A stretch of DNA of 64,000 nt from Ancylobacter koreensis. GTDB taxonomy: Bacteria; Pseudomonadota; Alphaproteobacteria; Rhizobiales; Xanthobacteraceae. A program made the translations under genes and the position numbers. The stretch lies in NCBI RefSeq assembly GCF_023016525.1, contig NZ_JALKCG010000005.1:62001-126000 (forward strand). The letters are read 5' to 3'. Shown here in pieces: positions 45,516-64,000 of this stretch (its first letter is position 1; each line of letters opens with the position of its first letter). Under the pieces are notes generated by a model. That model worked only from the letters and a program-made list of their open reading frames with translations. It was not told the origin of the DNA and made no database searches.

Positions 45516-45605
45516 GTCATCCCCGGGCCTGACCCGGGGATCCACGTCTTCGAGACGGGCGGAACGGAGGAAGACGTGGATGGCCGGGTCAAGCCCGGCC
45601 ATGAC
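45516..45605. repeat. Dispersed palindromic repeat, copy 1 (inverted)
   Basis: About 90 bases between ccmE and ccmF. Read on the minus strand it starts GTCATGGCCGGGCTTGAC and ends CCCGGGGATGAC, with GTGGAT/ATCCAC arms in the middle. The same architecture recurs at 58495-58573 and 62006-62088. Confidence 0.85.
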
Positions 45606-45628
45606 GGGGCAGAAGGTGGTGCGCACCC

Positions 45629-50457: not shown

Positions 50458-50688
50458 CTACCGCGTCCCGCGCCACCCGCAGAGCGCCTTTCCCACCGCA
50501 TTATGCGCCTTCACCTGCCGGATGGTCGGGTCGGTGTCGGCCATCGCCCAGGAGATCGGGCGAAAGGCGCCGCACGCGCCTCTAGTCGCGGCGGAAGGCG
50601 TCGTCGTCGCGCAGCCGGCGATCGTCGCCATTGCGCCGGTCAGCGTCAGCACGCGCGCGATCCGCGCGCTCGATCGTCTCCACCACAT
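50458..50688 (-). CDS. Rz1-like outer-membrane spanin lipoprotein
   Basis: 76 residues; residues 1-25 form a signal peptide ending at the lipobox IAGC with Cys26. The rest has CGAFRPISW, DTDPTIRQVKAHN and a final LCGW, a pattern common in small lipoproteins of alphaproteobacterial phages. Its start lies 107 bases inside the upstream spanin gene in another frame, the hallmark of Rz/Rz1 pairs. Outer-membrane fusion to release particles is the expected role. The exact start is uncertain. Confidence 0.65.
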   Translation of the reverse strand: MWWRRSSARIARVLTLTGAMATIAGCATTTPSAATRGACGAFRPISWAMADTDPTIRQVKAHNAVGKALCGWRGTR

Positions 50689-50830
50689 CGCGTTCCCCTT
50701 CCAGCCGGCAGGCCTCGCGGCCCTCGCTGCGTCCCTTCAAATAGATCCAGCCCGCCGCCGCCAGCAGGGCGAGGGCGAGCGCGCCGGTCCGCCCGAGCGG
50801 GCTCACCAGCAGGCCGAGCAGCGCCGTCAT
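50582..50830 (-). CDS. Rz-like inner-membrane spanin
   Basis: 82 residues: one N-terminal membrane helix (about 4-31) followed by a strongly charged, helical periplasmic part rich in Arg, Asp and Glu (EGERDVVETIERADRARADA). This is the layout of inner-membrane spanins. It overlaps the endolysin stop by 4 bases and contains the start of the Rz1-like gene in another frame. The assignment rests on structure and neighbours, since spanins share little sequence. Confidence 0.65.
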   Translation of the reverse strand: MTALLGLLVSPLGRTGALALALLAAAGWIYLKGRSEGREACRLEGERDVVETIERADRARADADRRNGDDRRLRDDDAFRRD

Positions 50831-51615
50831 CGCGCGCCCTCCCCGGCGAGGCGCCGCAGCGCGCCGTGCAGCGTCAGCCCGACGCCGGCCAGCACCAGCG
50901 CGGCGAACAGCCATCTCAGCGGGCCGGCATAGGCGGCGAGCGGGGCCAGCCGGTCGGCCTGCTCGGCCACCATGGCGCCCAGCGTGCCGGTGCCAGCGAC
51001 GAGCCCGCCCGCCCCTTCCGGCGTACGCGAAAGGCGGGTATCGGCGGGGCGCGCCCTGCCGCCGGAAGCCTGCCGGGCCAGCGGCGCGGAAGCGGCCCCA
51101 CGCGCCATCGCCGTGGCGGCGGCCCGCACCTCGCCGACGCGCCGCATCCAGCCAGCGCCGAAGGTCGGGTAGGTCTTCAGGCCCCGCAGCATGGCGAGCC
51201 GGCGCGCGCAGACCGCCTCGACCAGCGCCGGGGGGTCGGCGTCCGCCAGCGCGGCGAGCGTCACCTCGCCGATCTCGCCGTCGGCGAAGACGCCCAGCGC
51301 GCGCTGGAGCCATTTCGCCGCCTGCGCCGGGCCGGAGTTCACCGCCGCGTCGAACACGCAATAGTCGATGCCGGCCGGCAGTTCGTCGGCGCGCACCGCC
51401 TCCCAGTACTGCCGGCGGTAGATCGCCTCGATCTCCCCGGGCTCGATCAGGCGGACGGGCCGCGCGGGCGCGCCGCGCCGGCGGCGCCAGCCGTCATAGA
51501 CGCGCTGGGTCACACCCTTCATGGTCGCCCCGCCAGGGTCGGCGGGATGGTCGGCATAGCCGCCCTCATGCGCGAGGACGCGGCTGAGCGCCTCGTCGAA
51601 GCTCGACGCGGTCAT
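50827..51615 (-). CDS. GTA endolysin, glycoside hydrolase family 108
   Basis: 262 residues. LSRVLAHEGGYADHPADPGG has the GH108 catalytic Glu17 in EGGY, and GVTQRVYDGWRR follows. The peptidoglycan-binding type 3 domain covers about 95-165. A linker (about 165-230) and a C-terminal membrane helix (about 232-253) end the protein. The enzyme cleaves peptidoglycan sugars to lyse the producer cell. The membrane anchor could hold it inactive until release. A CtrA-type site lies 33 bases upstream of the ATG. Confidence 0.88.
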   Translation of the reverse strand: MTASSFDEALSRVLAHEGGYADHPADPGGATMKGVTQRVYDGWRRRRGAPARPVRLIEPGEIEAIYRRQYWEAVRADELPAGIDYCVFDAAVNSGPAQAAKWLQRALGVFADGEIGEVTLAALADADPPALVEAVCARRLAMLRGLKTYPTFGAGWMRRVGEVRAAATAMARGAASAPLARQASGGRARPADTRLSRTPEGAGGLVAGTGTLGAMVAEQADRLAPLAAYAGPLRWLFAALVLAGVGLTLHGALRRLAGEGAR

Positions 51616-51647
51616 AATGGCCTCGCAAAAAGCAGGAAAATTGTGAA

Positions 51648-51662
51648 TTAACGATTCATTAA
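51648..51662. promoter_or_regulatory. CtrA-binding box (TTAA-N7-TTAA)
   Basis: TTAACGATTCATTAA is an exact match to the full CtrA consensus TTAA-N7-TTAA, followed by C as in the extended form. It lies in an AT-rich 144-base gap between the endolysin gene (33 bases away, minus strand) and the 51760 gene (97 bases away, plus strand), and the motif can be read from both sides. CtrA is known to control GTA production and release in Rhodobacter and relatives. Confidence 0.75.
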
Positions 51663-51759
51663 CTACGCCACTACCGGGACACGGTTGCGCTGCGGCAAGG
51701 TTTGCCGGACGATTTCCCCTCGAAGTCAGTGGGTTCCGCCACAAGGGAGTTCCGCCGGC

Positions 51760-52269
51760 ATGCCCAGGGAAGACAATCTCGTCGACGACCTGAGGAATAT
51801 TTTTGATGATGCACGCCGCAGCTCCGGACAGGTGCAGGCGGAAGCGCTTCTCGCCGCCGCGCCGATCACGCTGCGCGGCGAGGATCGCGTGCTCGGCTAC
51901 ATGCGCGACCGGCTCAGCCAGGACAGCTATCGCGCCATCTGCCGTGCCATCGGCGAGGAGCTCGACCGGCTCAATGGCGAGATCACCCGCCTGCGCCGCT
52001 TCGAGCGGATGTCGGCCGTGGTCGAGGAGGCGCGCAGCCGCATCGCCGCCGGCCCGGTGCTGACGCCGCGCGCGCCCTCGCCGACGGTATCCCGGCCCTC
52101 CGGCTTCATCGGCCCCCGTCTTCCCTCGGCCAGCCGTGCGGCGGCGGGCACGCCGTCCGGCGCCGCCTCCGGCACGACGACGACCGCCGCGACGGCAGCG
52201 CGCATCGCCCGGCCGTCGGCGCCTCCCGCGCGCCCGGCCGCGACCGAGGTCCCCGGCCCCGCCGAGTAA
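51760..52269 (+). CDS. Hypothetical protein inside the GTA cluster, opposite strand
   Basis: 169 residues from ATG 51760 with GGGAG upstream. Residues 1-115 are helical and charged (NLVDDLRNIFDDARRSSGQV, DRVLGYMRDRL, ELDRLNGEITRLRRFERM). The tail (about 120-169) is low-complexity, rich in Ala, Pro, Thr and Ser. I recognise no family. It is the only plus-strand gene in this region, divergent from the endolysin across the CtrA box and convergent with the spike-side genes. It might be a CtrA-dependent factor tied to particle release or to the cell cycle. Confidence 0.6.
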   Translation: MPREDNLVDDLRNIFDDARRSSGQVQAEALLAAAPITLRGEDRVLGYMRDRLSQDSYRAICRAIGEELDRLNGEITRLRRFERMSAVVEEARSRIAAGPVLTPRAPSPTVSRPSGFIGPRLPSASRAAAGTPSGAASGTTTTAATAARIARPSAPPARPAATEVPGPAE

Positions 52270-52308
52270 ATCGCCGCCGACAAGTCCGGGCGCGGGCCGC
52301 CATGGGCC

Positions 52309-52596
52309 TCAGGCGTCGCCGCCCTCCCACTCCGCCGCCGGCAGTTCGTCGAGCAGCGCCTCGCGTTCCCCGGAGGTCAGCAGCCCGTCATAGGCTGCCT
52401 GGCTGAGGCTGAGCCCGGCCTCGCCGGGCGTTGCGGGGATGCACAGCGCCGCACGCCCGTCGGGATGGTTGACCAGCGGCCAGAGCGCCTCGGTGAGCGG
52501 CCCGTCCGGCTCGCCCGACTGGCGCAGCGGCGCAAAGGCGGCGCGCGAGCGTGCCCGCGCTTCCTCCGTCGTCGGCAGGATCAGATAGCGGCTCAT
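52309..52596 (-). CDS. Small GTA-cluster protein of unknown function
   Basis: 95 residues, acidic toward the end. SRYLILPTTEEARARSRAAF is followed by a compact helical region with ALWPLVNHPDGRAALCIP and a C-terminal LTSGEREALLDELPAAEW. No family is recognised. It overlaps the stop of the gene upstream by 4 bases (ATGA), so it belongs to the spike operon and may chaperone or cap a spike protein. Confidence 0.65.
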   Translation of the reverse strand: MSRYLILPTTEEARARSRAAFAPLRQSGEPDGPLTEALWPLVNHPDGRAALCIPATPGEAGLSLSQAAYDGLLTSGEREALLDELPAAEWEGGDA

Positions 52597-53483
52597 GCGG
52601 CGATCCTCGCAAGGGCGCCGTCGAGCGCGGCGATGTCGAGCGGCTGGCGGGACAGGACGAGCGCCTGCAGGCTTCCCTGAAAGCGGTTGCTGCCGCCCGA
52701 GGTCGGCGCCCCGATCCGCGCCAGCGACCCCCCGTCCGCATCGGCGGTCGGCAGCGCGGCGTTGAGCGGCCCGGTGGTGATCGCGCCGTCGGTCGCCACG
52801 TCGATCTGCCCGGCGGAGAGCCGGGCGCGGCCGATCAGCCGCCGCGCGGTGCCGCGCGAGCGCGAGATGGAGATGGGCGAAGCGCCGGAATCGGCCGGGC
52901 GGGCGTAGTAATAGGTGCCGCCGGGCGGCACGAGCTGGAGAGCGATACGCGCCACCGAAACGCTCGTCGTCGGCGCGTAAAACAGTTGCTGGATGCTGCC
53001 GGGCCCGATGGTCGCGACGCCCAGCACGGCGGCGGCGGTAAAGGCGCCGGCATTGCGCGCCAGCCCCGTGCTGCCTCCGATCTCCAGATAGTCGTCTCCG
53101 CCGTCGAAGGCGAGCGCCGCGCCGCCATTCGCGCCGAGCTCGGGCACGCCGGCCTCGACGAGGCGCGGCTGCGCGGCGGCGCTGGTCTGCACCGCGTGCC
53201 GCCCGTTTCCGGTCTGGTCGTACCAGGCGACGACATAGGCCGAGGCGCCGCCGACGAAGGCGAGCAGCGCGGCGGCGTCGAGGCTTTCGCCGGCGAAGCC
53301 GATGTCGAGCTGCCCGTTGTCGGAGGCGCGGCGCACCCGCAGGCACGGCCCGGCATAGGTAGAGGCGAGGCGCTTCACGCCGAACGCGGCCTCGATCCGC
53401 CCGGCGAAGGCGTCGAGCGGGGCGGGCGGCGCCGCCAGATGCCGGCCGGCAAGGTCCAGCCGTAATGCGAAGGACGCCGCCAT
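52593..53483 (-). CDS. Arabinofuranosidase-B/LamG-like domain protein (putative spike or fibre)
   Basis: 296 residues. AAFGVKRLASTYAGPCLRVR, RRASDNGQLDIGFAGESLDA and VAWYDQTGNGRHAVQ are typical of the catalytic-domain fold of alpha-L-arabinofuranosidase B (GH54-like). Phages and GTAs use it as a carbohydrate-binding module. The second half resembles a LamG/concanavalin fold. In this operon a surface-polysaccharide-binding fibre is more likely than an enzyme. It lies 1 base downstream of the GhsA-like gene. Confidence 0.75.
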   Translation of the reverse strand: MAASFALRLDLAGRHLAAPPAPLDAFAGRIEAAFGVKRLASTYAGPCLRVRRASDNGQLDIGFAGESLDAAALLAFVGGASAYVVAWYDQTGNGRHAVQTSAAAQPRLVEAGVPELGANGGAALAFDGGDDYLEIGGSTGLARNAGAFTAAAVLGVATIGPGSIQQLFYAPTTSVSVARIALQLVPPGGTYYYARPADSGASPISISRSRGTARRLIGRARLSAGQIDVATDGAITTGPLNAALPTADADGGSLARIGAPTSGGSNRFQGSLQALVLSRQPLDIAALDGALARIAA

Positions 53484-53484
53484 C

Positions 53485-53790
53485 TCAGTCGATCCGGTGG
53501 ATGACGAGGCCGGCCGTGGTGCCGGTTGCCAGCACCCGCCGCACCAGGAATTCGAGCACGCTCGCCTGGCCGGGCGGCACCGGCAGGGTCAGCGGCGCGT
53601 CATCCGCCGCGTCGACGGGCAGGATGCGCACCTCGGCGCTGGCCAGCGTCGCCGGGGCGAAGACCCGCAGGCGCGCGTAGCGCGGCAGGTCGGCGGCATC
53701 GTCCGGCACCACCGGCGCGCCCGCGCGGCCGAGCGCGGCGGGCGAGAGGGCGCGGCCGCGCCAGGGGTCCTTGGCGGGATCGTAGGGCAT
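53485..53790 (-). CDS. Head-spike base protein, GhsA (rcc01079)-like
   Basis: 101 residues. An N-terminal arm (about 1-30, DPAKDPWRGRALSP, with PVVPDDAADLPRYARLRVFA) precedes a small beta domain ending in PPGQASVLEFLVRRVLATGTTAG. This is the pattern of the spike base family named after R. capsulatus rcc01079. In RcGTA, GhsA and GhsB form head fibres that help bind the recipient's capsule. Here the gene lies next to the tail genes instead of at a distant locus. Recognition is from memory of the family. Confidence 0.7.
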   Translation of the reverse strand: MPYDPAKDPWRGRALSPAALGRAGAPVVPDDAADLPRYARLRVFAPATLASAEVRILPVDAADDAPLTLPVPPGQASVLEFLVRRVLATGTTAGLVIHRID

Positions 53791-53811
53791 CGTGTGTCTC
53801 CGGGGTTGGGA

Positions 53812-54498
53812 TCAGATGTCGAAGGCGAGGTAGGAGAGGACGAGGCGCACGCGTCCGCCGGTGAAGGCGCCGCCCAGCGCGGTAACGCGCAGCGGCGTGT
53901 CGGCATAGAAGGCCTGCGGGCCGATGACGCCGATATTGGTGGCGCCCGGCACGACGCTCAGCAGCCCGCCGAATTTCGAGGTCTCGCCGGCGATGCCGAC
54001 CTCATAGGCGGTGGCGCCCGTCACTGCCGCCAGCGTCCGGCTCGCCACGGCGAGGCCGATGGCGCGGTTCGGGATGACGAGCTCCGTCTCGACGAAGGCG
54101 CCGGCGAGGTCGAGTTCCTCCTCCTCGGCAGCCAGCCGCACGCCGCCGCCCGGCGTCGCCGCCAGCAGGTCGCGCCAGTTCGTGCCGTCATGGATCAGCG
54201 TGCGCCCCTCGGCCGCGACATGGGCGCGCCAGCCGGCGCCGGGCGCGAGGAAACGCCAGCCGGCGTCGAACAGCGCCACCTCGCCCGCGTGTCCGGCCCA
54301 GTCGCCGGTCGCGCCCGCCGCCACGATGTGCCGGTCGCCCGGCACGGGATCGGCCGGCGGCGCCGTGCGGGTGCGGTCATGGACGCCAAGCTGCGCCAGC
54401 GCGTCGAGCCGCAGCAGCGCCTCGTTATGGGTCACGTGCTTCTGCGCCTGCGCCGCCGCGATCAGCGGCAGCGCCAGCAGGGGGGTCGTCTCGCTCAT
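53812..54498 (-). CDS. DUF2793 head-spike protein, GhsB-like
   Basis: 228 residues. TPLLALPLIAAAQAQKHVTHNEALLRLDAL at the start and PGDRHIVAAGATGDWAGHAG, GWRFLAPGAGW and HDGTNWRD are the DUF2793 signature (about 1-130), found in GhsB of RcGTA. A beta-rich C-terminal part (about 135-228) would be the receptor-binding end. It lies 25 bases downstream of the tip protein gene and upstream of the GhsA-like gene. Confidence 0.78.
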   Translation of the reverse strand: MSETTPLLALPLIAAAQAQKHVTHNEALLRLDALAQLGVHDRTRTAPPADPVPGDRHIVAAGATGDWAGHAGEVALFDAGWRFLAPGAGWRAHVAAEGRTLIHDGTNWRDLLAATPGGGVRLAAEEEELDLAGAFVETELVIPNRAIGLAVASRTLAAVTGATAYEVGIAGETSKFGGLLSVVPGATNIGVIGPQAFYADTPLRVTALGGAFTGGRVRLVLSYLAFDI

Positions 54499-54523
54499 GG
54501 CATTTCCTGTCTGTGGACGGGGG

Positions 54524-57500
54524 TCAGACCGCCAGCCGGGTCTCCAGCGCCGCCCCGGCGCCGACCTCGGCCGAGAGCTGGACGACGCGGATATCGAGGA
54601 AGGACTGCGGGGCGCCGAAATCGGCGATCTCGTCGGTCGCCGCATAGAGGACGGAGGGGGCGGACGTCGCGAGGCGGCGCACCACCGCCTCCCCGTCGAG
54701 GATGGCGACCTCGTAGGCCTCGACGGTCTCGCCGAGCGGCACCTCGAAAAGGTCCCAGGAATCCCCGCCCCCGCGTGTGCGCCGTGTCCAGCCCAGCACT
54801 ACCCCTTCCGGCGTGCGGCGGGCGCGGGCATGGACGGGGGCGAGCGGGCGCAGCGCCTGCGGGCCGGCCATGGCGGCGATCTCGGTGACGGCGGGGTCGC
54901 CATGGTCGCGATCCGCCCGGCCGACGCGCAGCAGCAGCGCGCGGCCGAGCATGTCGAGCCCGCCCGCGACCGGGAGGAGATTGGCGTCGAGACGGATCAG
55001 CCGCGTGCCGGCAGGCCAGGGCGCGGCGGCGCGCGCCTCGGTGCCGAGCTGGCCGCGCAGCAGGCCGGAAAGCCGCCAGCGCCGTTCGCCGATCAGCTCG
55101 GCCTCGGCGAACTGGATCGCCTCCACCTCGCCGGAAGGCGCGACCAGCGCGAGCGCATTGGCCCCGCCCAGCACCGCCTCCTCGCTGGCGGCGGCGATCA
55201 GCCCGCCATCGAGCTCGATCTCGAGCCTCGTCCGGCTCCAGCGCCAGCACGGGCCGGGCGGCAGATCGGCGAGCGTCGCGCCCGTCACCGCCGGAGCGGG
55301 GATGGTCGCGACGCGCTCGAAGCTCGCCCCGTCCACCGCCCGCCACACGGCCAGGCTCCCCGGCCACGGCGCGAGGAACGCACCGAGCCAGGCCAGCACC
55401 GGCCCCGCCTCCCCGCCCGGCAGCGGCAAGGCGACAAGCTGCACCTGCGGCGGCCCGTCTCCGGCCGGCATGTCGAGCGTGACCGGCCGGGCCGCCTGCA
55501 CGGCGAGGTCGAACACGGCGGGGTCGATGCTGCGCGCGCTGACGAGCCGCGCCTCGCGGTCCTCGATCGCGGTGATCTCCATGAGCCGCGCGCGTCCGTC
55601 GCGCTCGATGCGCAGCAGGTCGCCCGGCTCCAGCGCCAGATGCGAGGGCGGCAGCGTCAGGCTCAGCGTGTCGCGCCCGGCCCAGATGTCCTGTAGGAAG
55701 CGGTCGGCAAGTCCCGCCGCAAATCCGGGATCCGTCACCATGGCGACGTCGAGCCCGGTGGCCGCCCGTGCCGCGCCGGCAAGCCGGCGGGAGGAGGCGG
55801 TCGCGCGCCGGTAGTCGCCATTGCCGTCGATGAAGCCGAGCGTCGCGCTCGCCGGCAACTCGCCCTCGGCGGCGCGCACGAAGCGCGGCGGCGCGATGTC
55901 CTCGCCGGCGGCGATGTCCTCGTCGGTGATGAGTGCGCGCACCCGCCCGCCGCGCCGGCGCAGCGCCAGCCCCTCGCCGCGCTCGACGAGATCGAAGGCG
56001 AAGGCCCGCGCCAGAGGTTCCAGCGCCGCCCGCGCCGTCATCGGCCGGTCCACGACATAGCCGTCGACGACGCCGGAAAGCGCCGCCGCGTCGATAGCCT
56101 CCACGCCGAAATCGGCGGCCAGCGCGGCCGCCAGCTCCGCGAGCGGAGCGGCGCCGAGCCGGCCGCTCAGCCAGTGGCCGGTCTCCCAGTTCGCCCCGTC
56201 CGCCCACACGTCGCGGGCGAGCGGGAACACCGGGAAGGGCCGCGCGTCCCAGCTCCAGGCGAAGATGCCCGCCGGCTCGATCATCCGCCCGCCGGGCAGC
56301 GCGGGCGCCGCCGGGTTGAGCGCGGCCGAGGTCGCAAAGCCCGTCAGCGTCGCCTCGATCAGCCGGCGCTGCATCAGGTCGTCGCGCCGTCCGCTGGAGA
56401 AGGGCGGCAGGCCGCCATCGGCCGATTTGGCGTCGGGGAAGACGCTTGGCCGGTTGGCTCCCTTGTCGACCGCCGGGCAGCCGATCTCGGTGAGGCGCAC
56501 CGGCTTGGAACCCGGCAGCCAGGCGGTCGGCGCCGCCTGCCGCACGCCGCCGACGCGCTCGTGATGGGCCTGGCTCCACCAGCCGGCAATGTCCTTCTGG
56601 CGGAACACCCAGGGCTCGCCATAGGCGCCGTCAGTGATGGGAAACCGCGCCTGCGCGGCGCGGGCGGCCTCGTCGGCGTAGTACCAGTCGAAGGCCTCGC
56701 CCGCGTTGAGGTTGCCCGCGAGATAGGCCGGATCGTGCAGGCTCTCATGGTCCTGCGCGTCGAGATGGGCGTCGCCGTCGCGCCAGTCCGCGAGCGGGGG
56801 ATACCAGTCGATGCCGACGAAATCGAGCGCGGGCGCGGCCCAGAGCGGGTCGAGCGGGAAGCGCACCTCCGCCCCGCCGTCACGCACATCGGCGCCGTAT
56901 TCGGCCCAGTCGGCGGCGTAGCCGACCTTGGTTCCCGCCCCGACGATGGTCTTCACCTCGCCCGCCAGCGCGGCGAAGGCGGCGGCGGCGGGATAGGTTC
57001 CCGGCGCCGAGCGCACGCGGGTCAGCGCCGTCATTTCGGAGCCGACGAGGATCGCCTCCACCCCGCCGGCCAGCACGGAAAGCCGGGCATAGTGCAGCGC
57101 CATGCGGCGCAGGGACCATTCCTCCGGCCCGGAATAGACGACGCGTCCGCCGAGAACGCTGAAATGCGCCGCGCTCGCCGTGCCGAACAACGCCGCGACC
57201 TGCGTGCCCGCCGCCGCCGTGCCGTCCGGCGAGCCGGGCCGGCCGGGCGCGGGGTGGCAGGTGATGCGCCCGCGCCAGGGATAGGCCGGCTGGCTCGCCT
57301 CCCCGCTCCACGGGTCGGGGCGCGCATTGCCGGCGGGAATGTCCATCATCACGAAGGGATAGAGCGTCACCGCCAGCCCGCGCGCCTTCAGCGCCCGGAT
57401 CGCCTCGACCACGCTGTCGTCGGAGGGCGTGCCGCCATAGGCCGGGCGTCCCTCATGCTGGCTGACGAGGGTGGCAGTCTCGCGCAGCTGCCCCGCCACC

Positions 57501-58435
57501 CGCCAGGCGACGTTGAACGGAAAGATCTGCGTCGGCTTCACGCGTCGCTCGACGCCGGGGCGCACCCGGCAGGTGCCGGCCCGCAGGTCGTCGCCGAACC
57601 AGCTCACCACCAGCGCCACCCGCTCCAGATTGGGACAAGTCGCGAGAAGCTGGTCGAGCGCGGCGGAAAAGTCGCTGGCATGGGTGGCGACGTGCCGGTT
57701 CTCCGGCTGGTAGACGCCGGGCCGGTCGACCCGGACCACCTCGCGCGGATCGTAGCCGAATTCGGTGGCGCCGGGGATCAGCGTCACCGCGCGCAGGTCG
57801 CGCTCCAGCGTGCCGACCGCCCGCTCCACCTCGACCGATATCTGCGGCAGCCGGTTGCCGAAGGAGGCGAGCGCCAACCGCTCGAAAACGAGATAGGCGA
57901 GGCCGCGATAGGCCGGCGCGCCCGGCACGCGCGCCTCGATCAGCGGGTCGGGAAGCTGGTCCTCGCCGCCCAGATGCCGACGCACCACACGCCAGCGCGT
58001 ATCGAGCAGCCGCCCGTCGGCCCAGATGCGGCCGATCCGCGTCACCGGCCCCTCGCACAGGCCGACGGCGAAGCTGCCGAAATAGCTGTAGCTGGTGGTG
58101 GAGACGCCGCCCGCCCCCGCGCCGATGCTGCCGCCCTTGCCGCCGCCCGATTGCGTCTGGGTGGAGACCACCTCCTCCACCGGCGCCGCCCAGATCACCT
58201 GGCCGGAGAGCCGGGCGCGGCCGTAGAGGCGCGGCATCGCCGCCCCTTCGGTGGACGTCATGGTGCCGAATTCGGCGAGGCGCGGCCCCTCGACCCGGCG
58301 GCCGGGGTTCAGCACCAGGCTGTCGACCGCCGAACCGCCGAGCGCGCCGAGCGCCCGCCCGGCCAGCGCACCGACCGGCCCGAACAGCGCCCCGCCGACC
58401 GCCCCGCCAAGGGCGCCGAGAATGAGTGTGGCCAT
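54524..58435 (-). CDS. GTA tail-tip 'megatron' protein (gp15-like)
   Basis: 1303 residues. The N-terminus is a Gly/Ala-rich hydrophobic stretch (ILGALGGAVGGALFGPVGAL). A tail-assembly region follows, then a glycoside-hydrolase-like TIM barrel (about 430-740, with FVGIDWYPPLADW and GEPWVFRQKDI), then a phage-tail_3 domain (about 780-960) and C-terminal fibronectin-like parts. RcGTA gp15 is the tip protein that contacts the cell surface and helps deliver DNA. Size and order match. It is followed by the spike genes. Confidence 0.92.
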   Translation of the reverse strand: MATLILGALGGAVGGALFGPVGALAGRALGALGGSAVDSLVLNPGRRVEGPRLAEFGTMTSTEGAAMPRLYGRARLSGQVIWAAPVEEVVSTQTQSGGGKGGSIGAGAGGVSTTSYSYFGSFAVGLCEGPVTRIGRIWADGRLLDTRWRVVRRHLGGEDQLPDPLIEARVPGAPAYRGLAYLVFERLALASFGNRLPQISVEVERAVGTLERDLRAVTLIPGATEFGYDPREVVRVDRPGVYQPENRHVATHASDFSAALDQLLATCPNLERVALVVSWFGDDLRAGTCRVRPGVERRVKPTQIFPFNVAWRVAGQLRETATLVSQHEGRPAYGGTPSDDSVVEAIRALKARGLAVTLYPFVMMDIPAGNARPDPWSGEASQPAYPWRGRITCHPAPGRPGSPDGTAAAGTQVAALFGTASAAHFSVLGGRVVYSGPEEWSLRRMALHYARLSVLAGGVEAILVGSEMTALTRVRSAPGTYPAAAAFAALAGEVKTIVGAGTKVGYAADWAEYGADVRDGGAEVRFPLDPLWAAPALDFVGIDWYPPLADWRDGDAHLDAQDHESLHDPAYLAGNLNAGEAFDWYYADEAARAAQARFPITDGAYGEPWVFRQKDIAGWWSQAHHERVGGVRQAAPTAWLPGSKPVRLTEIGCPAVDKGANRPSVFPDAKSADGGLPPFSSGRRDDLMQRRLIEATLTGFATSAALNPAAPALPGGRMIEPAGIFAWSWDARPFPVFPLARDVWADGANWETGHWLSGRLGAAPLAELAAALAADFGVEAIDAAALSGVVDGYVVDRPMTARAALEPLARAFAFDLVERGEGLALRRRGGRVRALITDEDIAAGEDIAPPRFVRAAEGELPASATLGFIDGNGDYRRATASSRRLAGAARAATGLDVAMVTDPGFAAGLADRFLQDIWAGRDTLSLTLPPSHLALEPGDLLRIERDGRARLMEITAIEDREARLVSARSIDPAVFDLAVQAARPVTLDMPAGDGPPQVQLVALPLPGGEAGPVLAWLGAFLAPWPGSLAVWRAVDGASFERVATIPAPAVTGATLADLPPGPCWRWSRTRLEIELDGGLIAAASEEAVLGGANALALVAPSGEVEAIQFAEAELIGERRWRLSGLLRGQLGTEARAAAPWPAGTRLIRLDANLLPVAGGLDMLGRALLLRVGRADRDHGDPAVTEIAAMAGPQALRPLAPVHARARRTPEGVVLGWTRRTRGGGDSWDLFEVPLGETVEAYEVAILDGEAVVRRLATSAPSVLYAATDEIADFGAPQSFLDIRVVQLSAEVGAGAALETRLAV

Positions 58436-58494
58436 GAGGGCTCCGATTCAGGGAAGGGTCGTCGTCCGGGATCGCGGCATCGACAAAGAAGCTC

Positions 58495-58573
58495 GTCATG
58501 GCCGGGCTTGACCCGGCCATCCACGTCTTTGGCGCAAAGGAGCCGTGGATCCCCCGTCAAGCCCGGGGGTGAC
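58495..58573. repeat. Dispersed palindromic repeat, copy 2 (inside the GTA cluster)
   Basis: About 79 bases between the tip and peptidase genes. It starts GTCATGGCCGGGCTTGAC, has ATCCACGTCTT and GTGGATCC in the middle, and ends CCCGGGGGTGAC. Same family as 45516-45605 and 62006-62088. The gap 58436-58630 holds nothing else that I can support. Confidence 0.85.
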
Positions 58574-58630
58574 GGTGTGCGGGAGGATACCGGGCAGGAA
58601 TAACAATAGCCGGGGGCCCCACTGAACGCC

Positions 58631-59068
58631 TCACGTCCCCGGAAAGGCGAAGGCGAAGGCCAGCCGCCGGCGCCACCAGGGGGCGAGGCACACCTCGGCC
58701 GCCGCCGCCCCGTCATGGGCGTGCACCATGCGGTCCGGCGCGACGAGGATGGCCGCATGCTTGGCCGGGAAGCCCGCGCGCCAGCGGAACAGCAGCACGT
58801 CGCCCGGCACGATGGCCTCCGGCGCCACCGCGCGCATGTGGCGGCCGGCGGCCTCCGCCATCTGCTCGGCCTTCGTCGCCTCCGCCCAGTCGGGCGCGTA
58901 GGGCGGCAGGTCCTGCGGCTCGGCGCCGATCACCGCCCGCCACACGCCGCGTACCAGCCCGAGGCAGTCCGCCCCCTGTCCCTTGCAGGACGCGCGGTGC
59001 AGATAGGGCGTGCCGATCCAGCCGCGTGCCTCGGCGACGATCGCCGCGCGCGCCTTGTCCGCGTCCAT
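58631..59068 (-). CDS. GTA NlpC/P60 tail peptidase (gp14-like)
   Basis: 145 residues from ATG 59068 (a GTG at 59071 is possible). NlpC/P60 fold with catalytic Cys35 in GADCLGLVRG and His104 in FPAKHAAIL. In RcGTA the homologous peptidase at the tail tip opens the cell wall peptidoglycan during DNA delivery. It overlaps the hub gene stop by one base (TGATG). Confidence 0.92.
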   Translation of the reverse strand: MDADKARAAIVAEARGWIGTPYLHRASCKGQGADCLGLVRGVWRAVIGAEPQDLPPYAPDWAEATKAEQMAEAAGRHMRAVAPEAIVPGDVLLFRWRAGFPAKHAAILVAPDRMVHAHDGAAAAEVCLAPWWRRRLAFAFAFPGT

Positions 59069-59931
59069 CACTGGCCCCCCGGCATGGCGACGCGCAGCAC
59101 CGCGTCATTGCCCGGCATGTCGGGAAAGCCGCGAAAGTTCGACGTGTTGGCGAAGCGGTCGCGGCAGGTCTCGAAGCGCCGGTCGCAGCCGGCGGTCACG
59201 GTGAAAGCGTCGCCGGACGCGAGCGGCTCGGGCGGACGCTGCCACAGCTCCAGCCGCGTGCCGGCGTCGCGCCCATGCGCCTTCACCTCGGTGGCGAAGC
59301 CAGCACTTGCGCCCCCGGTGAAGACGAGCCGCCCTTGCGCGAACCAGCCCGCCACATAGGCGTCCAGCCCCTCCGCGGCGAACAGGCCGGGCCCGAGCAC
59401 CGACGCCACCGTGCCCTCAGCGCGATAGGCGGGATCGTCCAGCGCCACCTTGCAGCGCGCGTCACCGAGGTCCGCGTCGCAGCCGGCAGTGAACAGCCGG
59501 CCGCGCACCACGTTGAGCGCCGCCGAGAGGCCGCGTAGCTCGGCATGGAAGCTGCCGCCCTCGCGCCGCACCTCGCCGAGATGCGCCCGGCGCAGCACGA
59601 GGAAATTCTCCGGCGCCGACCAGTCCACGAGGATCAGCTCGATCGCCGCTCCGTCGTAGCGGCCGGCGTCGAGATCGGCCTCGTCGATCAGTTCGGAGGT
59701 CAGCGCCGCCGACATCTCCCCGCCGCCGACGGCGAAGCCCAGCGCGTTCGCGTCCTCGCTGCCGGCCACGCCCGAGGCGGCGCGAAAGAGCGTGCCGTCG
59801 ACGAACAGCTCCGCGTCATGCTCGGTGAGGCCGATCACCGCGCCGTCGCGTCGGGTCAGCCGCCAGCAGCGCGCCAGCGTCGTCGCTCCTCCCGCCAGTG
59901 CGGCGGCGAGCCCGTCCGGAATGTCTCTCAC
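59068..59931 (-). CDS. GTA tail hub protein, DUF2163 (gp13-like)
   Basis: 287 residues with the DUF2163 N-terminal domain (about 1-160) and the C-terminal phage_BR0599-type domain. Cys151-X8-Cys160 and Cys249-X6-Cys256 form two pairs. The RcGTA hub protein has been shown to hold an iron-sulfur cluster, so these four are the likely ligands. It would close the tail tube and connect to the tip. It overlaps the distal tail gene by 4 bases. Confidence 0.92.
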   Translation of the reverse strand: MRDIPDGLAAALAGGATTLARCWRLTRRDGAVIGLTEHDAELFVDGTLFRAASGVAGSEDANALGFAVGGGEMSAALTSELIDEADLDAGRYDGAAIELILVDWSAPENFLVLRRAHLGEVRREGGSFHAELRGLSAALNVVRGRLFTAGCDADLGDARCKVALDDPAYRAEGTVASVLGPGLFAAEGLDAYVAGWFAQGRLVFTGGASAGFATEVKAHGRDAGTRLELWQRPPEPLASGDAFTVTAGCDRRFETCRDRFANTSNFRGFPDMPGNDAVLRVAMPGGQ

Positions 59932-60569
59932 GGCCGTATCTCCAGGATCGGGATGCGCGGGATCGCCCCCGCCTCGAAGGCGGTGAGGTTCACCTCCAGA
60001 AAATCGGTGTCGAAGCGCGCCGGCACGTCGAACAGGAAGCCCGCCGTCACGTCCGCGCCCTCGGCGGGCACATGGCCGGCGAGAAAGGTGAGCGCGCCGG
60101 TGGTCACGTCGAGCGCGAAATGCACGCCCTCGGTGCGCTCGGCCCCGCCCACCGCCACCCGCACCGAGCCGGCCACCGGCTTGGCGATGGGCCGCGTATA
60201 GGGCGCGTGGTCACCGCCATAGGTCTTGGCGAGGGTGAAGACCGCACGCACGCCGTCGCCGGTGCCGAGCGGCTGGTCGAACGGGGTCACCGCTTGGCCC
60301 GGCGCGGCGGAGGAATGGTCCAGCCGGTCGCGCCAGCGGAAGCCGTAGAGCCGCCCGCGCCGCTCCTCGAAGAAGGCGACGACGGCCGAGAGCTGGGGGA
60401 GCGAGGTCACGCCATAGCCGGCATCCCAGCGCCGGCGCGAATGGGCGAGCCGCGTGTTGCGCTCCTCGCGGCCGGTCAGCGTGGTGACGATCTCGGTCGC
60501 CCGCTCCGGCCCGCCCGCCGCGCCGAGCGCGATGTCGAGCGGGAACAGCGTCTCGTGGAAGGCGGGCAT
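59928..60569 (-). CDS. GTA distal tail protein, DUF2460 (gp12-like)
   Basis: 213 residues of the DUF2460 / TIGR02217 family: FHETLFPLDIALGAAGGPER, SRRRWDAGYGVTSLPQLSAV and VVAFFEERRGRLYGFRWRDRLDH. It forms the ring between tail tube and hub. It starts 1 base after the tape measure gene ends and overlaps the hub gene. Confidence 0.92.
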   Translation of the reverse strand: MPAFHETLFPLDIALGAAGGPERATEIVTTLTGREERNTRLAHSRRRWDAGYGVTSLPQLSAVVAFFEERRGRLYGFRWRDRLDHSSAAPGQAVTPFDQPLGTGDGVRAVFTLAKTYGGDHAPYTRPIAKPVAGSVRVAVGGAERTEGVHFALDVTTGALTFLAGHVPAEGADVTAGFLFDVPARFDTDFLEVNLTAFEAGAIPRIPILEIRP

Positions 60570-61172
60570 CTAGAGGCTCCTTTCCCCGCGCGCCACGGCG
60601 CGGGCGACGAGGCCGGCGAGATAAGCGTCGGAGCGGCGGAACGAGGAGGCGTCGGGCGTGGCGACATTCACCGTCACGTTCATCGAACGGCCGCCCGCTC
60701 CGCTCCCGGCGGCGACGCCGAGCCGTCCGTCCGGCCCGCGCCGCAGCGGCAGGATCGCCTCGGCGCCGGCCTCGCCCATCAGGCCGAGGGCGCCGCCCGC
60801 CATCGGGAAATAGGTCGGCGCGGCCACCACCCCGCCCTGCGCGAAGGGCACGACGCGGCCATGGGCGAGCGCAGCGCCCTTCGCGAAGCCGAACGCGCTC
60901 CCGAGCCCGCCCAGCGCGCCCTGCAGCAGCCCGGCGACGCCCTGTTCCAGCGGCCGGAAGGCGACGTCGAGCGCCAGCGAGGAGAGCCGGCCCGCCAGCG
61001 CGCGCAGCACGTCGTCGGCCTCGCGGCCCTTCAGCGCCGCCCCGGTCAGCGCGTCGCCGACCACCCGCCCGAAGCCGCGCGCCAGCCGCTCGGCCTCGGC
61101 GATCTCGCGGCGGAAGGCGCCGGTGTCGGCGGCGATCTCGACGGTGAGCCCGTCCTCCATCTCGTCGGCCAT
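60570..61172 (-). CDS. GTA tape measure protein (gp11-like)
   Basis: 200 residues, start at 61172 with GGAGGAG upstream. A helical N-terminal part (VEIAADTGAFRREIAEAERL, 1-65) is followed by a Gly/Ala-rich amphipathic stretch (about 65-125, AFRPLEQGVAGLLQGALGG) and a C-terminal GEAGAEAILPLRRGPDG typical of lambda-like tape measure ends. Such a short tape measure sets a very short tail, as in RcGTA, and differs from full phages. The gap upstream holds a palindromic element. Confidence 0.85.
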   Translation of the reverse strand: MADEMEDGLTVEIAADTGAFRREIAEAERLARGFGRVVGDALTGAALKGREADDVLRALAGRLSSLALDVAFRPLEQGVAGLLQGALGGLGSAFGFAKGAALAHGRVVPFAQGGVVAAPTYFPMAGGALGLMGEAGAEAILPLRRGPDGRLGVAAGSGAGGRSMNVTVNVATPDASSFRRSDAYLAGLVARAVARGERSL

Positions 61173-61234
61173 CTTCTCCTCCCTCGCTCGCATGCCCGTT
61201 TCAGATATCGCCCGCCGTGGCGGCGGTTTTCCCC

Positions 61235-61340
61235 CCGGGTCCCGGATCAACGTTCCGCCTGCGGCGTCACTGGTCCGGGACACGAGGGAACACGTTTCCC
61301 GGACAAGGTGCGCCTCGCGCACCGCCGATCCGGGACCCGG
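61235..61340. repeat. Three-stem palindromic element in the GTA cluster
   Basis: CCGGGTCCCGGATC (61235-61248) and GATCCGGGACCCGG (61327-61340) are perfect 14-base arms. They enclose GTCCGGGA/TCCCGGAC (61273-61280, 61297-61304) and GGTGCGC/GCGCACC (61307-61313, 61317-61323). The whole would fold as a closing stem with two hairpins. It fills most of the 190-base gap between the tape measure gene and the rcc01693-like gene. Confidence 0.8.
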
Positions 61341-61362
61341 CGAAGATTCTTCGGCCACCCGC

Positions 61363-61566
61363 TCAATCCGGGAACCGCGCCATCAGCGCATCGAGCGCGG
61401 CGCGGCCGAGCGGCACGCGGACCGGCCCGGTAGGGCCGAGCGCGGCGGCGAGCTCGCGCGGCGTCATGCGCCAGAAATCGCGCGGGGAAAGCTGCAGCCG
61501 CCCGAGGCCGAAGGCCATCGCCTCCGCCCAGGGGAAGGCCCGGGGAAGGGCGGCGCCGCCGGTCAC
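61363..61566 (-). CDS. GTA rcc01693-family protein (tail chaperone region)
   Basis: 67 residues. FPWAEAMAFGLGRLQLSPRD and WRMTPRELAAALGP are the signature of the small rcc01693 family between the tail chaperone and tape measure genes of GTAs. The start overlaps the upstream gene by 4 bases. In tailed phages this spot encodes the frameshifted chaperone extension (G/GT). Here it is a separate overlapping frame. Confidence 0.85.
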   Translation of the reverse strand: MTGGAALPRAFPWAEAMAFGLGRLQLSPRDFWRMTPRELAAALGPTGPVRVPLGRAALDALMARFPD

Positions 61567-61946
61567 GTCGCCGGCGGCGGTTGGGGCAAAGGGGCGCGGG
61601 CGGCCTCCCCGCCCATGCCCGCGTCGGACCCCGCATCGGCAGCCCCGAAGGTGGCGGCGATCAGCTCGCCGACGAGGCGCGCAAAACCCGCCGCCCCGCC
61701 GGGCGTGGTCATGCGCGCCACTTCCTCCTCGGCGACGCTCTCCCCCGCCCCGCGCAGCCCCGCCGCCACGATGCGGATGGCGTCACGGGCGGACAGGCGC
61801 CCGCCGGCGAAGCGGCCGGTGAGCGCGACGAGATCCTCGGCGCCGAAGGCGTCCTCAAGCTCCGCCAGCGCGCCGAGCGTCAGCACCAGCGTGCGACGCC
61901 GCCCGTCGAGCTCGGCGGAGATTTCCCCGCGATGCCGGTTCGTCAT
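61563..61946 (-). CDS. GTA gp10-like tail assembly chaperone
   Basis: 127 residues. RHRGEISAELDGRRRTLVLT and LGALAELEDAFGAEDLVALT match the GTA chaperone family (Phage_TAC_11 type). The C-terminus (about 100-127) is Ala/Pro-rich. It would coat the tape measure during tail assembly and is not expected in the finished particle. It lies 163 bases downstream of the tail tube gene, a gap holding repeat copy 3. Confidence 0.87.
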   Translation of the reverse strand: MTNRHRGEISAELDGRRRTLVLTLGALAELEDAFGAEDLVALTGRFAGGRLSARDAIRIVAAGLRGAGESVAEEEVARMTTPGGAAGFARLVGELIAATFGAADAGSDAGMGGEAARAPLPQPPPAT

Positions 61947-62005
61947 GGTCGCTCCCTTTGAAGGATCGGAGGGAAGCCGTGTGCAGCGGTGCTCAAGAAA
62001 GCACC

Positions 62006-62088
62006 GTCATGGCCGGGCTTGATCCGGCCATCCACGTCTTCCCAGTGCGCAAAAAGTCATGGATCCTCGGGTCATGCCCGGGGATGAC
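62006..62088. repeat. Dispersed palindromic repeat, copy 3 (inside the GTA cluster)
   Basis: About 83 bases between the tail tube and chaperone genes: GTCATGGCCGGGCTTGAT at the left, ATCCACGTCTT and ATGGATCC in the middle, CCCGGGGATGAC at the right. Same family and orientation as 58495-58573. Confidence 0.85.
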
Positions 62089-62109
62089 GGCGCTCGGGGC
62101 GGGACCGCC

Positions 62110-62517
62110 TCACAGCGCCGCGAAGGTGATCTCGCCGGCGCTCTCCAGCGCGATGTCGAACGTCACCTCGCGGTCGTGCTCGGCGGCGATCTCCAGCGCC
62201 GTGATCTGGAACGGGCCGGTCAGCGTGCCGAAATCGGGCACCACGATCTGCGTGTTGCGGATCGTCCCGTCGAAGAAGCTCTGGCGGATCAGCGCGTCGG
62301 AGGCGGCGTCCTTGAACACGCCCGAGCCCGCCACCGAGGCGCGCTTCACTCCCGCGCCGGCGAGCAGCTCGCGCCAGCGCCCGGCGCTCTCGGCATGGGT
62401 CACGTCCACCGGCTCGGTGTTGAACGCGATCTGCCGCGAGCGCAGCCCCGCCACCGTGGCGTAGGCTGCCCCGTCATGGATCTTCAGCAAGAGGTCCTTG
62501 CCCTTCTGTGCCGCCAT
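62110..62517 (-). CDS. GTA major tail tube protein (gp9-like, TP901-1 family)
   Basis: 135 residues. KGKDLLLKIHDGAAYATVAG, FNTEPVDVTHAESAGRWREL and LESAGEITF at the end are typical of TP901-1-type major tail proteins. It builds the tail tube as stacked hexamers. It is flanked by two unusually wide gaps (163 and 234 bases), so it may be transcribed or translated at its own level. Confidence 0.92.
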   Translation of the reverse strand: MAAQKGKDLLLKIHDGAAYATVAGLRSRQIAFNTEPVDVTHAESAGRWRELLAGAGVKRASVAGSGVFKDAASDALIRQSFFDGTIRNTQIVVPDFGTLTGPFQITALEIAAEHDREVTFDIALESAGEITFAAL

Positions 62518-62751
62518 CGGCCGATCCTTTCCTTGCGCTCGCCCGCAACGGGCGGTATTCAGAGATGGTTAACCCTGTCGGTGTAGATTTGGCGAGGAAG
62601 GCCGGCAGACGAGGCGTCGAAAACATCCTCCAGGCTTCGCGGATCGATTCCGCAAACCCCGCCAAGTGACTTCATCTTCGGATTCAACTTCACGCGGATT
62701 CGCGAGTCGTCGGAATCGCTTGCGCGCGAAAGCTCGCGCGGGCGGAAAATC
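62518..62751. other. 234-base gap between tail terminator and tail tube genes
   Basis: No gene is supported; a 63-codon frame at 62474-62665 overlaps the tail tube gene and resembles nothing. Base composition is less GC-rich than the flanking genes. It contains the hairpin at 62723-62740. The ribosome site and perhaps a separate promoter for the tail tube gene lie here. Confidence 0.5.
62723..62740 (-). terminator. Hairpin just after the tail terminator gene
   Basis: CGCGCGA and TCGCGCG make a 7-bp stem with a 4-base loop, starting 12 bases past the DUF3168 stop. No T run, so termination would be weak, if any. Confidence 0.35.
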
Positions 62752-63168
62752 TCAATCGGTTTCCGTCACCGCCCGGAAACGCATCAGCGCGCGATAGGTC
62801 CGCCCGCCGGGTTCACGCCGAATCTCGGCGCCTGTGATGCGCAGATTGACCAGCCGGTGCCCCTCCAGCGCCAGCGGCGCGTCGTGCAGCACCTGCTGCA
62901 CCAGATGGGCGATCGCATGCGCCTCGCCATGCCCGCCCTGCCGCGACCAGGCGGCGAGCGTGATGCGATGTTCCAGCCCGCTCTCGGTGGCGGTCGACCA
63001 GTCGCTCACCTGCGCCTCGCCGAGCGTGACATAGGGAAATTCCGGCGCCGCCGGCGGCACGTCATGCACCCGCGCGCCGCCCAGCGCGGCGAGCAGCGGC
63101 CCGTCCGCGAGCAGCGCCGCGTGGATCGCCCGGCGCAGTTCCACCGCCGCGCCCGTCAACGTGACCAT
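62752..63168 (-). CDS. GTA tail terminator, DUF3168 (gp8-like)
   Basis: 138 residues of DUF3168: LRRAIHAALLADGPLLAALG, PEFPYVTLGEAQVSDWST and EHRITLAAWSRQGGHGEAHA. It caps the tail tube at its head end. Its start overlaps the end of a 32-codon frame that precedes it. Confidence 0.92.
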   Translation of the reverse strand: MVTLTGAAVELRRAIHAALLADGPLLAALGGARVHDVPPAAPEFPYVTLGEAQVSDWSTATESGLEHRITLAAWSRQGGHGEAHAIAHLVQQVLHDAPLALEGHRLVNLRITGAEIRREPGGRTYRALMRFRAVTETD

Positions 63169-63254
63169 CGCCGCCTCCCCGTCACCCGCTCGCCCATCGC
63201 GGCGAGGCGCCGCCTAAGCGCCTCCAGCCCCCTCACCCGCACCTCGAACCTCAC
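63156..63254 (-). CDS. 32-residue frame, possible relic of an HK97-gp10-like protein
   Basis: GTG 63254 overlaps the stopper stop (GTGA) and has GGAGGAA upstream, so translation is plausible. It reads MRFEVRVRGLEALRRRLAAM then GERVTGRRRWSR and stops at 63156, inside the DUF3168 start. The beginning resembles the N-terminus of HK97-gp10-type phage proteins (a beta strand, then GL..L...L), a gene that sits at this place in many phages but is usually 120-150 residues. It may be a truncated remnant kept for translational coupling. It is too short for firm assignment. Confidence 0.4.
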   Translation of the reverse strand: MRFEVRVRGLEALRRRLAAMGERVTGRRRWSR

Positions 63255-63571
63255 GGCGTTTCCTCCCGGCAGTCGCAGACGAGGAAGCGCCCGCGATTGT
63301 CGGGATCGCGCACCGCCTCGACGAGGAGGCGCCGCGCCCCCGACCTCAGCCGGTCGCCCGGCTGAAGCGTCGCCGGCGCGCGCACCGTCACCGCATGGGT
63401 GAGCACGGCGCCGGGCCGGTCGGCGATCTCACCGGGCACGGCGCGCGTCTCGATAGCGGCCCACAATGCGTCGACCGCGATGAAGGCGATGGTCGTCCCG
63501 CCCAGCCCGTCCGGCGTCTCCACCGGCGTCTCGTGCACCAGCCGGTGCCGCAGCGAACCGAGCGCGCTCAC
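63251..63571 (-). CDS. GTA head-tail stopper/adaptor (gp7-like)
   Basis: 106 residues of the phage head-tail adaptor family: GSLRHRLVHETPVETPDGLG, DALWAAIETR, LTHAVTVRAP and CDCREETP. It forms part of the neck below the portal. The start overlaps the connector gene stop by 4 bases. Confidence 0.9.
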   Translation of the reverse strand: MSALGSLRHRLVHETPVETPDGLGGTTIAFIAVDALWAAIETRAVPGEIADRPGAVLTHAVTVRAPATLQPGDRLRSGARRLLVEAVRDPDNRGRFLVCDCREETP

Positions 63572-64000
63572 AGCCGCGTCACCCGGTAGGGCACGACCAG
63601 CGCGTCGAGCCGGGCGGGAAAGGCCGCACCCGGGCCCGGCACATCGCGGTGCTCGTAGAAATGCGCCAGCACCACCCGCACCGCCTCGACGAGCGGCGAC
63701 GGCACGTGGTCGGCGGTGGGACCGTGGCCGGCGATCACATCGAGCGCAATGCCGGCAATGGGCCGGCCGGGCGCCGGCACCGCGCCGCGCTCCACCCGGA
63801 CCACGCCGGGAAGGCGTGACGTGTCGGCCGTGAAGGCGCCGAGCGGCACCTCGGCCTCGCGGCCGGCCGCGTCGATCACACGGGCGGCGATCACCTCGCG
63901 CAGCGGGTTCACCGGCACCGCGATCAGCCCGGAAGCCGGCCAGGCGTCGCGCACGAGGCGCCAGCTCTGGTCGATCAGCACCCGGCGGGTCAGCGCCTCC
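63568..64000 (-). CDS. GTA head-tail connector (gp6-like), 5' end outside the window
   Basis: The frame is open to the right edge, so the start is missing; an internal GTG at 63981 is not the true start because EALTRR precedes it in frame. Visible blocks are LIDQSWRLVRDAWPASGLIA, PLREVIAARVIDAAGREAEV and PSPLVEAVRVVLAHFYEHRD, matching the phiE125 gp8 / GTA adaptor family. It joins portal and stopper. Confidence 0.88.
   Translation of the reverse strand, partial: EALTRRVLIDQSWRLVRDAWPASGLIAVPVNPLREVIAARVIDAAGREAEVPLGAFTADTSRLPGVVRVERGAVPAPGRPIAGIALDVIAGHGPTADHVPSPLVEAVRVVLAHFYEHRDVPGPGAAFPARLDALVVPYRVTRL

Follow-up and report, generated by a model that had tools for sequence, protein, structure and literature searches.

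Does a block of phage-like genes in an alphaproteobacterial genome encode a gene transfer agent (GTA), that is, a domesticated, virus-like particle expected to carry bacterial DNA between cells, or is it a prophage or a decaying remnant? The question is raised by a stretch of 64,000 nucleotides from Ancylobacter koreensis (Xanthobacteraceae), hereafter the window, which corresponds to G000:C15:62001-126000 of a genome of 4.06 Mb that is 99% complete. By its predicted gene content, the minus strand of the window at 50458-64000 carries the tail, fibre, head-spike and lysis genes of a GTA of the type known from Rhodobacter capsulatus (RcGTA); read on both sides of the window end, the locus, about 21 kb long, is very probably a complete and domesticated alphaproteobacterial GTA cluster of type I (RcGTA-type). 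The element is of an ordinary kind, with a layout tidier than that of the model GTA, and its chief interest lies in the packaging gene.

The cluster proteins were named by comparison with Pfam, PHROGs, NCBIfam and the Protein Data Bank (PDB). The features are as follows, positions beyond the window being given on its scale (63999 plus the position in locus L004):

50458..50688, minus strand: o-spanin (Rz1-like) candidate, 76 aa, with lipobox IAGC, overlapping the i-spanin gene out of frame
50582..50830, minus strand: i-spanin (Rz-like) candidate; weak match to PHROG 1026 Rz-like spanin (E 0.003); N-terminal transmembrane segment 4-22 by hydropathy
50827..51615, minus strand: GH108 endolysin (PF05838, E 1.9e-29); C-terminal transmembrane segment 231-249, borderline, just above threshold
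51760..52269, plus strand: antisense open reading frame (ORF) u169; no family match in Pfam, PHROGs or NCBIfam; antisense homologues in loci L007 and L008
52309..52596, minus strand: u95, small protein behind GhsA, guessed to be an assembly factor; homologue at the equivalent place in Bosea sp. 117 (L011)
52593..53483, minus strand: GhsA-like head-spike fibre; PHROG 10356 virion structural protein (E 2e-16); weak match to Pfam ArabFuran-catal
53485..53790, minus strand: GhsB head-spike base; NF048002, 37 bits against a cut-off of 28; its profile matches Rcc01079 (6TB9, E 1.6e-4)
53812..54498, minus strand: DUF2793 tail fibre (PF10983, E 5e-31; 8GTC chain S, E 8e-41)
54524..58435, minus strand: g15 megatron (GTA_TIM, baseplate); PF13547, E 9e-132; RcGTA megatron 6TBA, E 2e-296
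58631..59068, minus strand: g14 NlpC/P60 cell-wall peptidase (PF00877, E 1.1e-6)
59068..59931, minus strand: g13 hub (PF09931, PF09356)
59928..60569, minus strand: g12 distal tail protein (DUF2460; PF09343)
60570..61172, minus strand: g11 short tape measure, 200 aa; NF058675 RcGTA_tape, E 4e-53, 180 bits, under the model cut-off of 220
61363..61566, minus strand: g10.1 tail assembly chaperone (PF09550)
61563..61946, minus strand: g10 (PF11836 GTA-gp10)
62110..62517, minus strand: g9 tail tube (PF06199)
62752..63168, minus strand: g8 tail completion, gp17 (PF11367)
63251..63571, minus strand: g7 head completion, Phage_HCP (PF05521)
63568..64000, continuing beyond the window, minus strand: g6 head-tail connector
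66135-67391, minus strand: capsid; PDB match to Rcc01687 of RcGTA (E 4.5e-100)
67582-68166, minus strand: S78 protease
68781-69938, minus strand: portal
70020-71354, minus strand: TerL
71320-71901, minus strand: TerS candidate, 193 aa

Two small ORFs also lie among the head genes, listed between the protease and the portal. The sequence-only reading of the window had described the genes from the connector to the tail tip, the GhsB- and GhsA-like proteins, the fibre, the endolysin and the spanin pair as contiguous and all recognised frames as intact; these pieces are present, the recognised frames are intact, and the terminase, portal, protease and capsid that it proposed to look for past position 64000 are found there. 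The minus-strand set runs from the TerS candidate to the baseplate and then through the fibre, the spike base and spike fibre, the endolysin and the spanin pair; what does not hold is pure one-strandedness, antisense genes breaking the block at two places, u169 in the window and a trypsin-like gene region between the capsid gene and g6. The core gene order of RcGTA was used for comparison: homologues of its core cluster occur here in the same order, which is a criterion for the Rhodogtaviriformidae, and the megatron, hub, short tape measure, capsid, spike base and fibre (that of RcGTA being of the DUF2793 type) are likewise shared. The named record closest to gp15, the g15 product, is from Ancylobacter moscoviensis (79%), in a comparison from which records very near the host genome may be excluded.

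The presence of structural genes of tailed phages, an endolysin and spanins in one block appears phage-like, as does the phage-style helix-turn-helix of the TerS candidate, and would suit a self-mobile temperate prophage with an integrase nearby. This explanation is extremely unlikely. A scan that covered part of the flanking genes showed no integrase, and no replication gene was recognised from TerS to the lysis genes. The longest exact repeat common to both 5.6-kb flanks measures 37 bp, against 12-17 bp with a shuffled flank, and was considered as a pair of att sites; it was rejected as such, since it is a dispersed element whose core has 31 exact copies genome-wide and which has copies inside the cluster. 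In the window, this palindromic repeat lies at 45578-45606, 58494-58522 and 62005-62033; an exact and a mismatched copy stand in gaps between GTA genes, which is consistent with long residence in the chromosome. Once the dispersed element is set aside, no att-like repeat is found in the 5.6-kb flanks. The neighbourhood is also constant across genera: a response regulator and a histidine kinase lie directly behind the GTA at window 47950-50021, and the same regulator is downstream in 55, and the kinase in 54, of the 58 named loci that extend 7 kb or more past gp15. These belong to 80 named loci chosen as the most similar to host gp15, and their frequencies are not those of the order; the other comparison sets are 60 stretches evenly sampled from the order, 11 stretches from outside it and 16 TerS regions of named genomes. 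With its constant downstream neighbours, and with an identity to relatives similar to that of neighbouring genes, the element has the place of a stably endogenised one. The host does have an integrase-bearing prophage, located elsewhere (contig C11, L005:14309 to L006:10779), with a portal, a terminase and, by eye, a capsid.

A decaying remnant that has lost particle production is very unlikely as well. It would agree with the state of the congener G072, which has just a 113-aa piece of TerL, with TerS not found beside it; in the host, however, the recognised frames are all intact, an activator pair is present, and the ratio of nonsynonymous to synonymous substitution rates (dN/dS) is below 1 for every gene compared. 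With G072, A. moscoviensis and a Xanthobacteraceae metagenome-assembled genome (MAG) as references, the core genes and those of the fibre, GhsB and the endolysin give 0.10-0.43 (0.30-0.38 for the last), and the neighbouring response regulator, histidine kinase, ccmI and ccmF, which are comparable in two of the three references, give 0.07-0.30. The core genes evolve under purifying selection, as their neighbours do, and GhsA, u95 and the i-spanin evolve faster than the core. The proposal that the locus is a GTA rather than a prophage or a remnant is thereby supported, the capsid gene included.

Some observations weigh against a complete and functional GTA. The ratio reaches 0.57 and 0.71 for GhsA (A. 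moscoviensis has no GhsA homologue), 0.54 for u95 and 0.54-0.77 for the i-spanin; for u169 it is 0.23-0.46, above 0.43 in one comparison, and for TerL it is 0.56 against G072, over only 103 residues of the truncated copy. The 19.9-kb stretch of G072 that was read (L170:1-19901) has no match to TerS, and the truncated TerL in it adjoins genes that are phage-like by eye; the GTA of this congener is probably broken. No significant PDB sequence match links GhsA to the head fibre of RcGTA, and the GhsA structure model, built from a three-sequence alignment, is unusable, with a predicted local distance difference test score (pLDDT) of 33. Finally, no particle has been seen from the host, and the clusters surveyed for TerS include no demonstrated producer (0/53).

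The host TerS candidate starts with a predicted helix-turn-helix domain. Among 61 order-level loci (the 60 sampled stretches and the host), TerL was matched in 53 and TerS in 48, and the 11 class-level loci gave TerS in 5 at first; 41 of the 53 TerS candidates have the domain, 22 of them outside the training set of the model, and 12 do not. Three further genomes outside the order comprise one with the domain and two without it. At E < 0.01 the model matched no ORF other than TerS among 10,931; with a database of this size, 39 of the 41 still pass. A Pfam search with 10 of the 22 domain-bearing candidates that had not trained the model gave a helix-turn-helix match at E <= 0.1 in 6/10, and the same search with 10 of the 12 domain-less candidates gave one in 0/10. 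In the test of 16 named genomes from the 80 loci, the domain is present at E < 0.01 in 11 (eight Ancylobacter, Bosea sp. 117, Azorhizobium doebereinerae and the Xanthobacteraceae MAG) and borderline in Microvirga terricola (E 0.048) and Methylobacterium gregans (E 0.096); among these 16 it was not found in Aquabacter cavernae, Rhodopseudomonas rhenobacensis and Bosea sp. SCN18. TerS is not comparable in the reference set used for the other dN/dS values; against the eight Ancylobacter and Bosea sp. 117, dN/dS is 0.22-0.57 for the domain and 0.46-0.72 for the rest of the protein. When the TerS of a relative is modelled by AlphaFold2 from its single sequence, three helices appear at residues 23-60, a block with pLDDT 82-89, followed by long helices.

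Could the ORF upstream of TerL instead be a regulator, fused or adjacent by chance, and no DNA-reading TerS? The lack of a significant PDB or phage match would allow it, but the same ORF has a conserved, predicted helical C-terminal half that is shared with the domain-less TerS ORFs found at TerL (94-249 aa as longest frames), and W55 is invariant in 20 aligned domain-bearing proteins; a chance regulator is therefore improbable. There are points on the other side of the assignment as a DNA-reading TerS: the Pfam matches of the host protein are weak (best HTH_38, E 0.022), the mean pLDDT of the TerS model is 61, the fold search gave nothing significant (best E 1.5), and in the remoter genomes with a clear or borderline domain the domain has, where computable, a dN/dS of 0.68-0.97 with synonymous divergence (dS) near 1. 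Two phage small terminases appeared in the fold search at E 5.0 and 5.6 and were rejected as not significant, and tblastn at E 0.01 found no phage relatives of TerS. In one genome (G122, L192:534-2135) a TerS-like stretch heads the TerL open frame, as a fusion or an extended frame.

On a quick TerL tree with 8 of 50 branches starred, the helix-turn-helix label changes 11 times, against a mean of 10.9 when shuffled; starred branches force at least four changes, and six families contain both states. The label is thus scattered, and the tree alone cannot separate gain from loss. Since five families from outside the order have what is recognisably the same domain, repeated loss is the simplest account.

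The origin of random host-DNA packaging is a central open question on GTAs, and the answer given in the papers cited here is that the DNA-binding domain of GTA TerS was lost; a review of the matter is worded for known GTAs. The RcGTA TerS (107 aa) is described as having no N-terminal helix-turn-helix, which was proposed as the defining trait of GTA-type TerS (PMC6854486), and the absence is restated in PMC7947584; by this description the host candidate differs from it. In the literature searched, no report of a helix-turn-helix TerS in RcGTA-type clusters was found. Because the domain-bearing clusters are of the same kind by gene content, one may not assume that random packaging, or being a GTA, generally rests on loss of the domain; if most GTA clusters still have the domain, the published answer is incomplete. 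Either the DNA binding of the domain would show little sequence preference, or certain sites would be favoured by these GTAs. A possible, tentative proposal is that most alphaproteobacterial GTAs have retained a TerS that reads DNA and begin packaging at favoured chromosomal sites, with a recognition helix tuned in each lineage, and that RcGTA-style blind packaging was derived several times by loss of the domain. Natural pairs with and without it exist within one bacterial family and make packaging specificity testable.

The sequence-only reading had also suggested a fully self-contained GTA. The structural, spike, fibre and lysis genes are indeed contiguous, and the cluster is nearly self-contained and convenient for study, since spikes, fibre and lysis genes lie in one stretch; the activator, however, is not in the block. 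A DUF6456 protein and a DnaA-type helix-turn-helix protein (Bac_DnaA_C) adjoin each other between sufE and mucR at C15:153922-154822, a GafY/GafZ-like pair about 20 kb from TerS, and therefore an activator appears to be present outside the cluster. The sufE-mucR neighbourhood has been described for GafA homologues in Hyphomicrobiales (PMC9638019). The two-gene activator differs from that of RcGTA and is shared with the GTA of Caulobacter crescentus (CcGTA), which is driven by GafY and GafZ (PMC11150451) and also has a core GTA cluster (PMC11150451, PMC9632790). Conversely, CcGTA is described as having no holin-endolysin homologues, lysis being due to LypABC (PMC13236601), and no known TerS (PMC11841831), whereas the host cluster has its own endolysin, spanin candidates and TerS candidate.

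How unusual is the layout? The endolysin gene of R. capsulatus is ectopic. Its fibre and spike genes are ectopic too (PMC6854486), whereas fibre, spikes and lysis genes are contiguous in the host; the contrast with R. capsulatus drawn by the sequence-only reading is correct for the spikes, and it extends to the fibres. In 120 genomes sampled evenly across the order, GTA_TIM is present in 92. DUF2793 lies behind it, on the same strand and within 12 kb, in 52 of the 87 genomes that have DUF2793, the others having it elsewhere or on another contig (33) or having no GTA_TIM (2). The GH108 endolysin, the only lysozyme family covered, is contiguous with GTA_TIM in 22 of 39 genomes, elsewhere in 10 and without GTA_TIM in 7; for the spike base the count is 6 of 18, with 10 elsewhere or on another contig and 2 without GTA_TIM, under a model that scores the host protein barely above cut-off and that divergent spikes escape. 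All three are contiguous only in the host and its congener. Fibre or GH108 genes contiguous with the GTA are common in the order; what is unusual is their combination with spikes. Of the 58 named loci, 45 have the fibre, 40 have a match to an endolysin and 12 have one to a spike-base model. A 76-aa ORF comparable to the o-spanin candidate follows the endolysin in A. cavernae (L036; by eye), and the i-spanin candidate is placed after the endolysin in relatives too; the spanin pair is a fair prediction. A second GH108 domain occurs elsewhere in the host genome (G000:C16:104630-104881).

An ancestral layout had been offered as one explanation of the contiguity. For the fibre this looks right, and the R. 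capsulatus state derived, since the Cronusvirus phages R4C and RcRhea, like the 52 genomes above, have the DUF2793 gene immediately after the gp15 homologue; for the spikes, contiguous in 6 of 18, either an ancestral or a derived layout would fit. These phages share with the host the tail and baseplate genes with this fibre; in their first 6 kb, the best match of the TerS, helix-turn-helix, TerL and portal models has E 0.088. An integrase is annotated in R4C, unlike in the flanking genes scanned in the host. In roseophage records (e.g. R4C, L187:6950-7642) and in 8GTC, an entry that also contains a 'Megatron protein', the DUF2793 fibre is labelled 'ribonuclease III', which looks like a propagated misnaming. 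On contig C13 of G072 (L164), weak matches to portal and capsid are found close to another match to the spike base, and spike bases may also travel with phages; no phage relatives of GhsB were found by tblastn at E 0.01.

The GhsA N-terminus, FALRLDL, resembles the alternating-hydrophobic plug of RcGTA. A 4-fold plug is found in the host GhsA and in a gene behind the spike base in 4 of 7 loci (one being a 47-aa ORF and another the second gene behind the base), against a background of 116 in 1058 proteins of at least 150 aa; because this background is high, the motif is weak evidence for the identity of the spike fibre. The identity of GhsA to relatives is 47-48% where that of GhsB is 84-85%, and GhsA is likely the diversifying, receptor-facing part mounted on a constant base.

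Taken together, the predicted genes would work as follows. The activator pair would turn the cluster on in some cells, and headful packaging would fill the heads with host DNA, the TerS helix-turn-helix gripping the DNA in a way that may start packaging at preferred places instead of randomly. The endolysin and spanins would then open the producer cell, and the spikes and fibres, with GhsA diversifying, would bind sugars on the surface of the recipient.

The antisense region between the capsid gene and g6 contains the following genes:

64437-65168 (L004:438-1169), plus strand: trypsin-like protease, 243 aa
65498-65716 and 65838-66050 (L004:1499-1717, 1839-2051), plus strand: two small proteins beside the trypsin-like gene

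The protease has an apparent signal peptide (by eye) that leads directly into IVGG, and the catalytic His, Asp and Ser are kept in 65, 66 and 67 of 67 aligned rows, the host row being counted twice. A trypsin-like gene lies at this place in at least 46 of the 51 named loci with both neighbours readable, with two or more copies in 15; the count is a lower bound under a strict overlap rule, since three of the remaining five loci (L011, L017 and L066) and the congener L088 carry the gene too but failed that rule. In the even sample it is found in 4 of 53, plus the congener, so that it marks part of the order only. Among the papers listed in the literature searches, nothing was found on a trypsin-like gene at the GTA capsid-g6 site; the Caulobacter LypA and LypC proteins have extra domains, as described in PMC13236601, which the 243-aa host protein is without. 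A conserved terminator between the capsid and antisense trypsin genes was considered and rejected: it is bidirectional only in the host and L008, 2 of 46 intervals, with counts of 2 forward and 3 reverse against 0.1-0.4 when shuffled, many of the intervals being just 25-60 bp. For this reason a general dependence on anti-termination at this point was dropped as well. The two small proteins are very alike, have apparent signal peptides (by eye) and have homologues in A. moscoviensis, A. lacus and the Xanthobacteraceae MAG.

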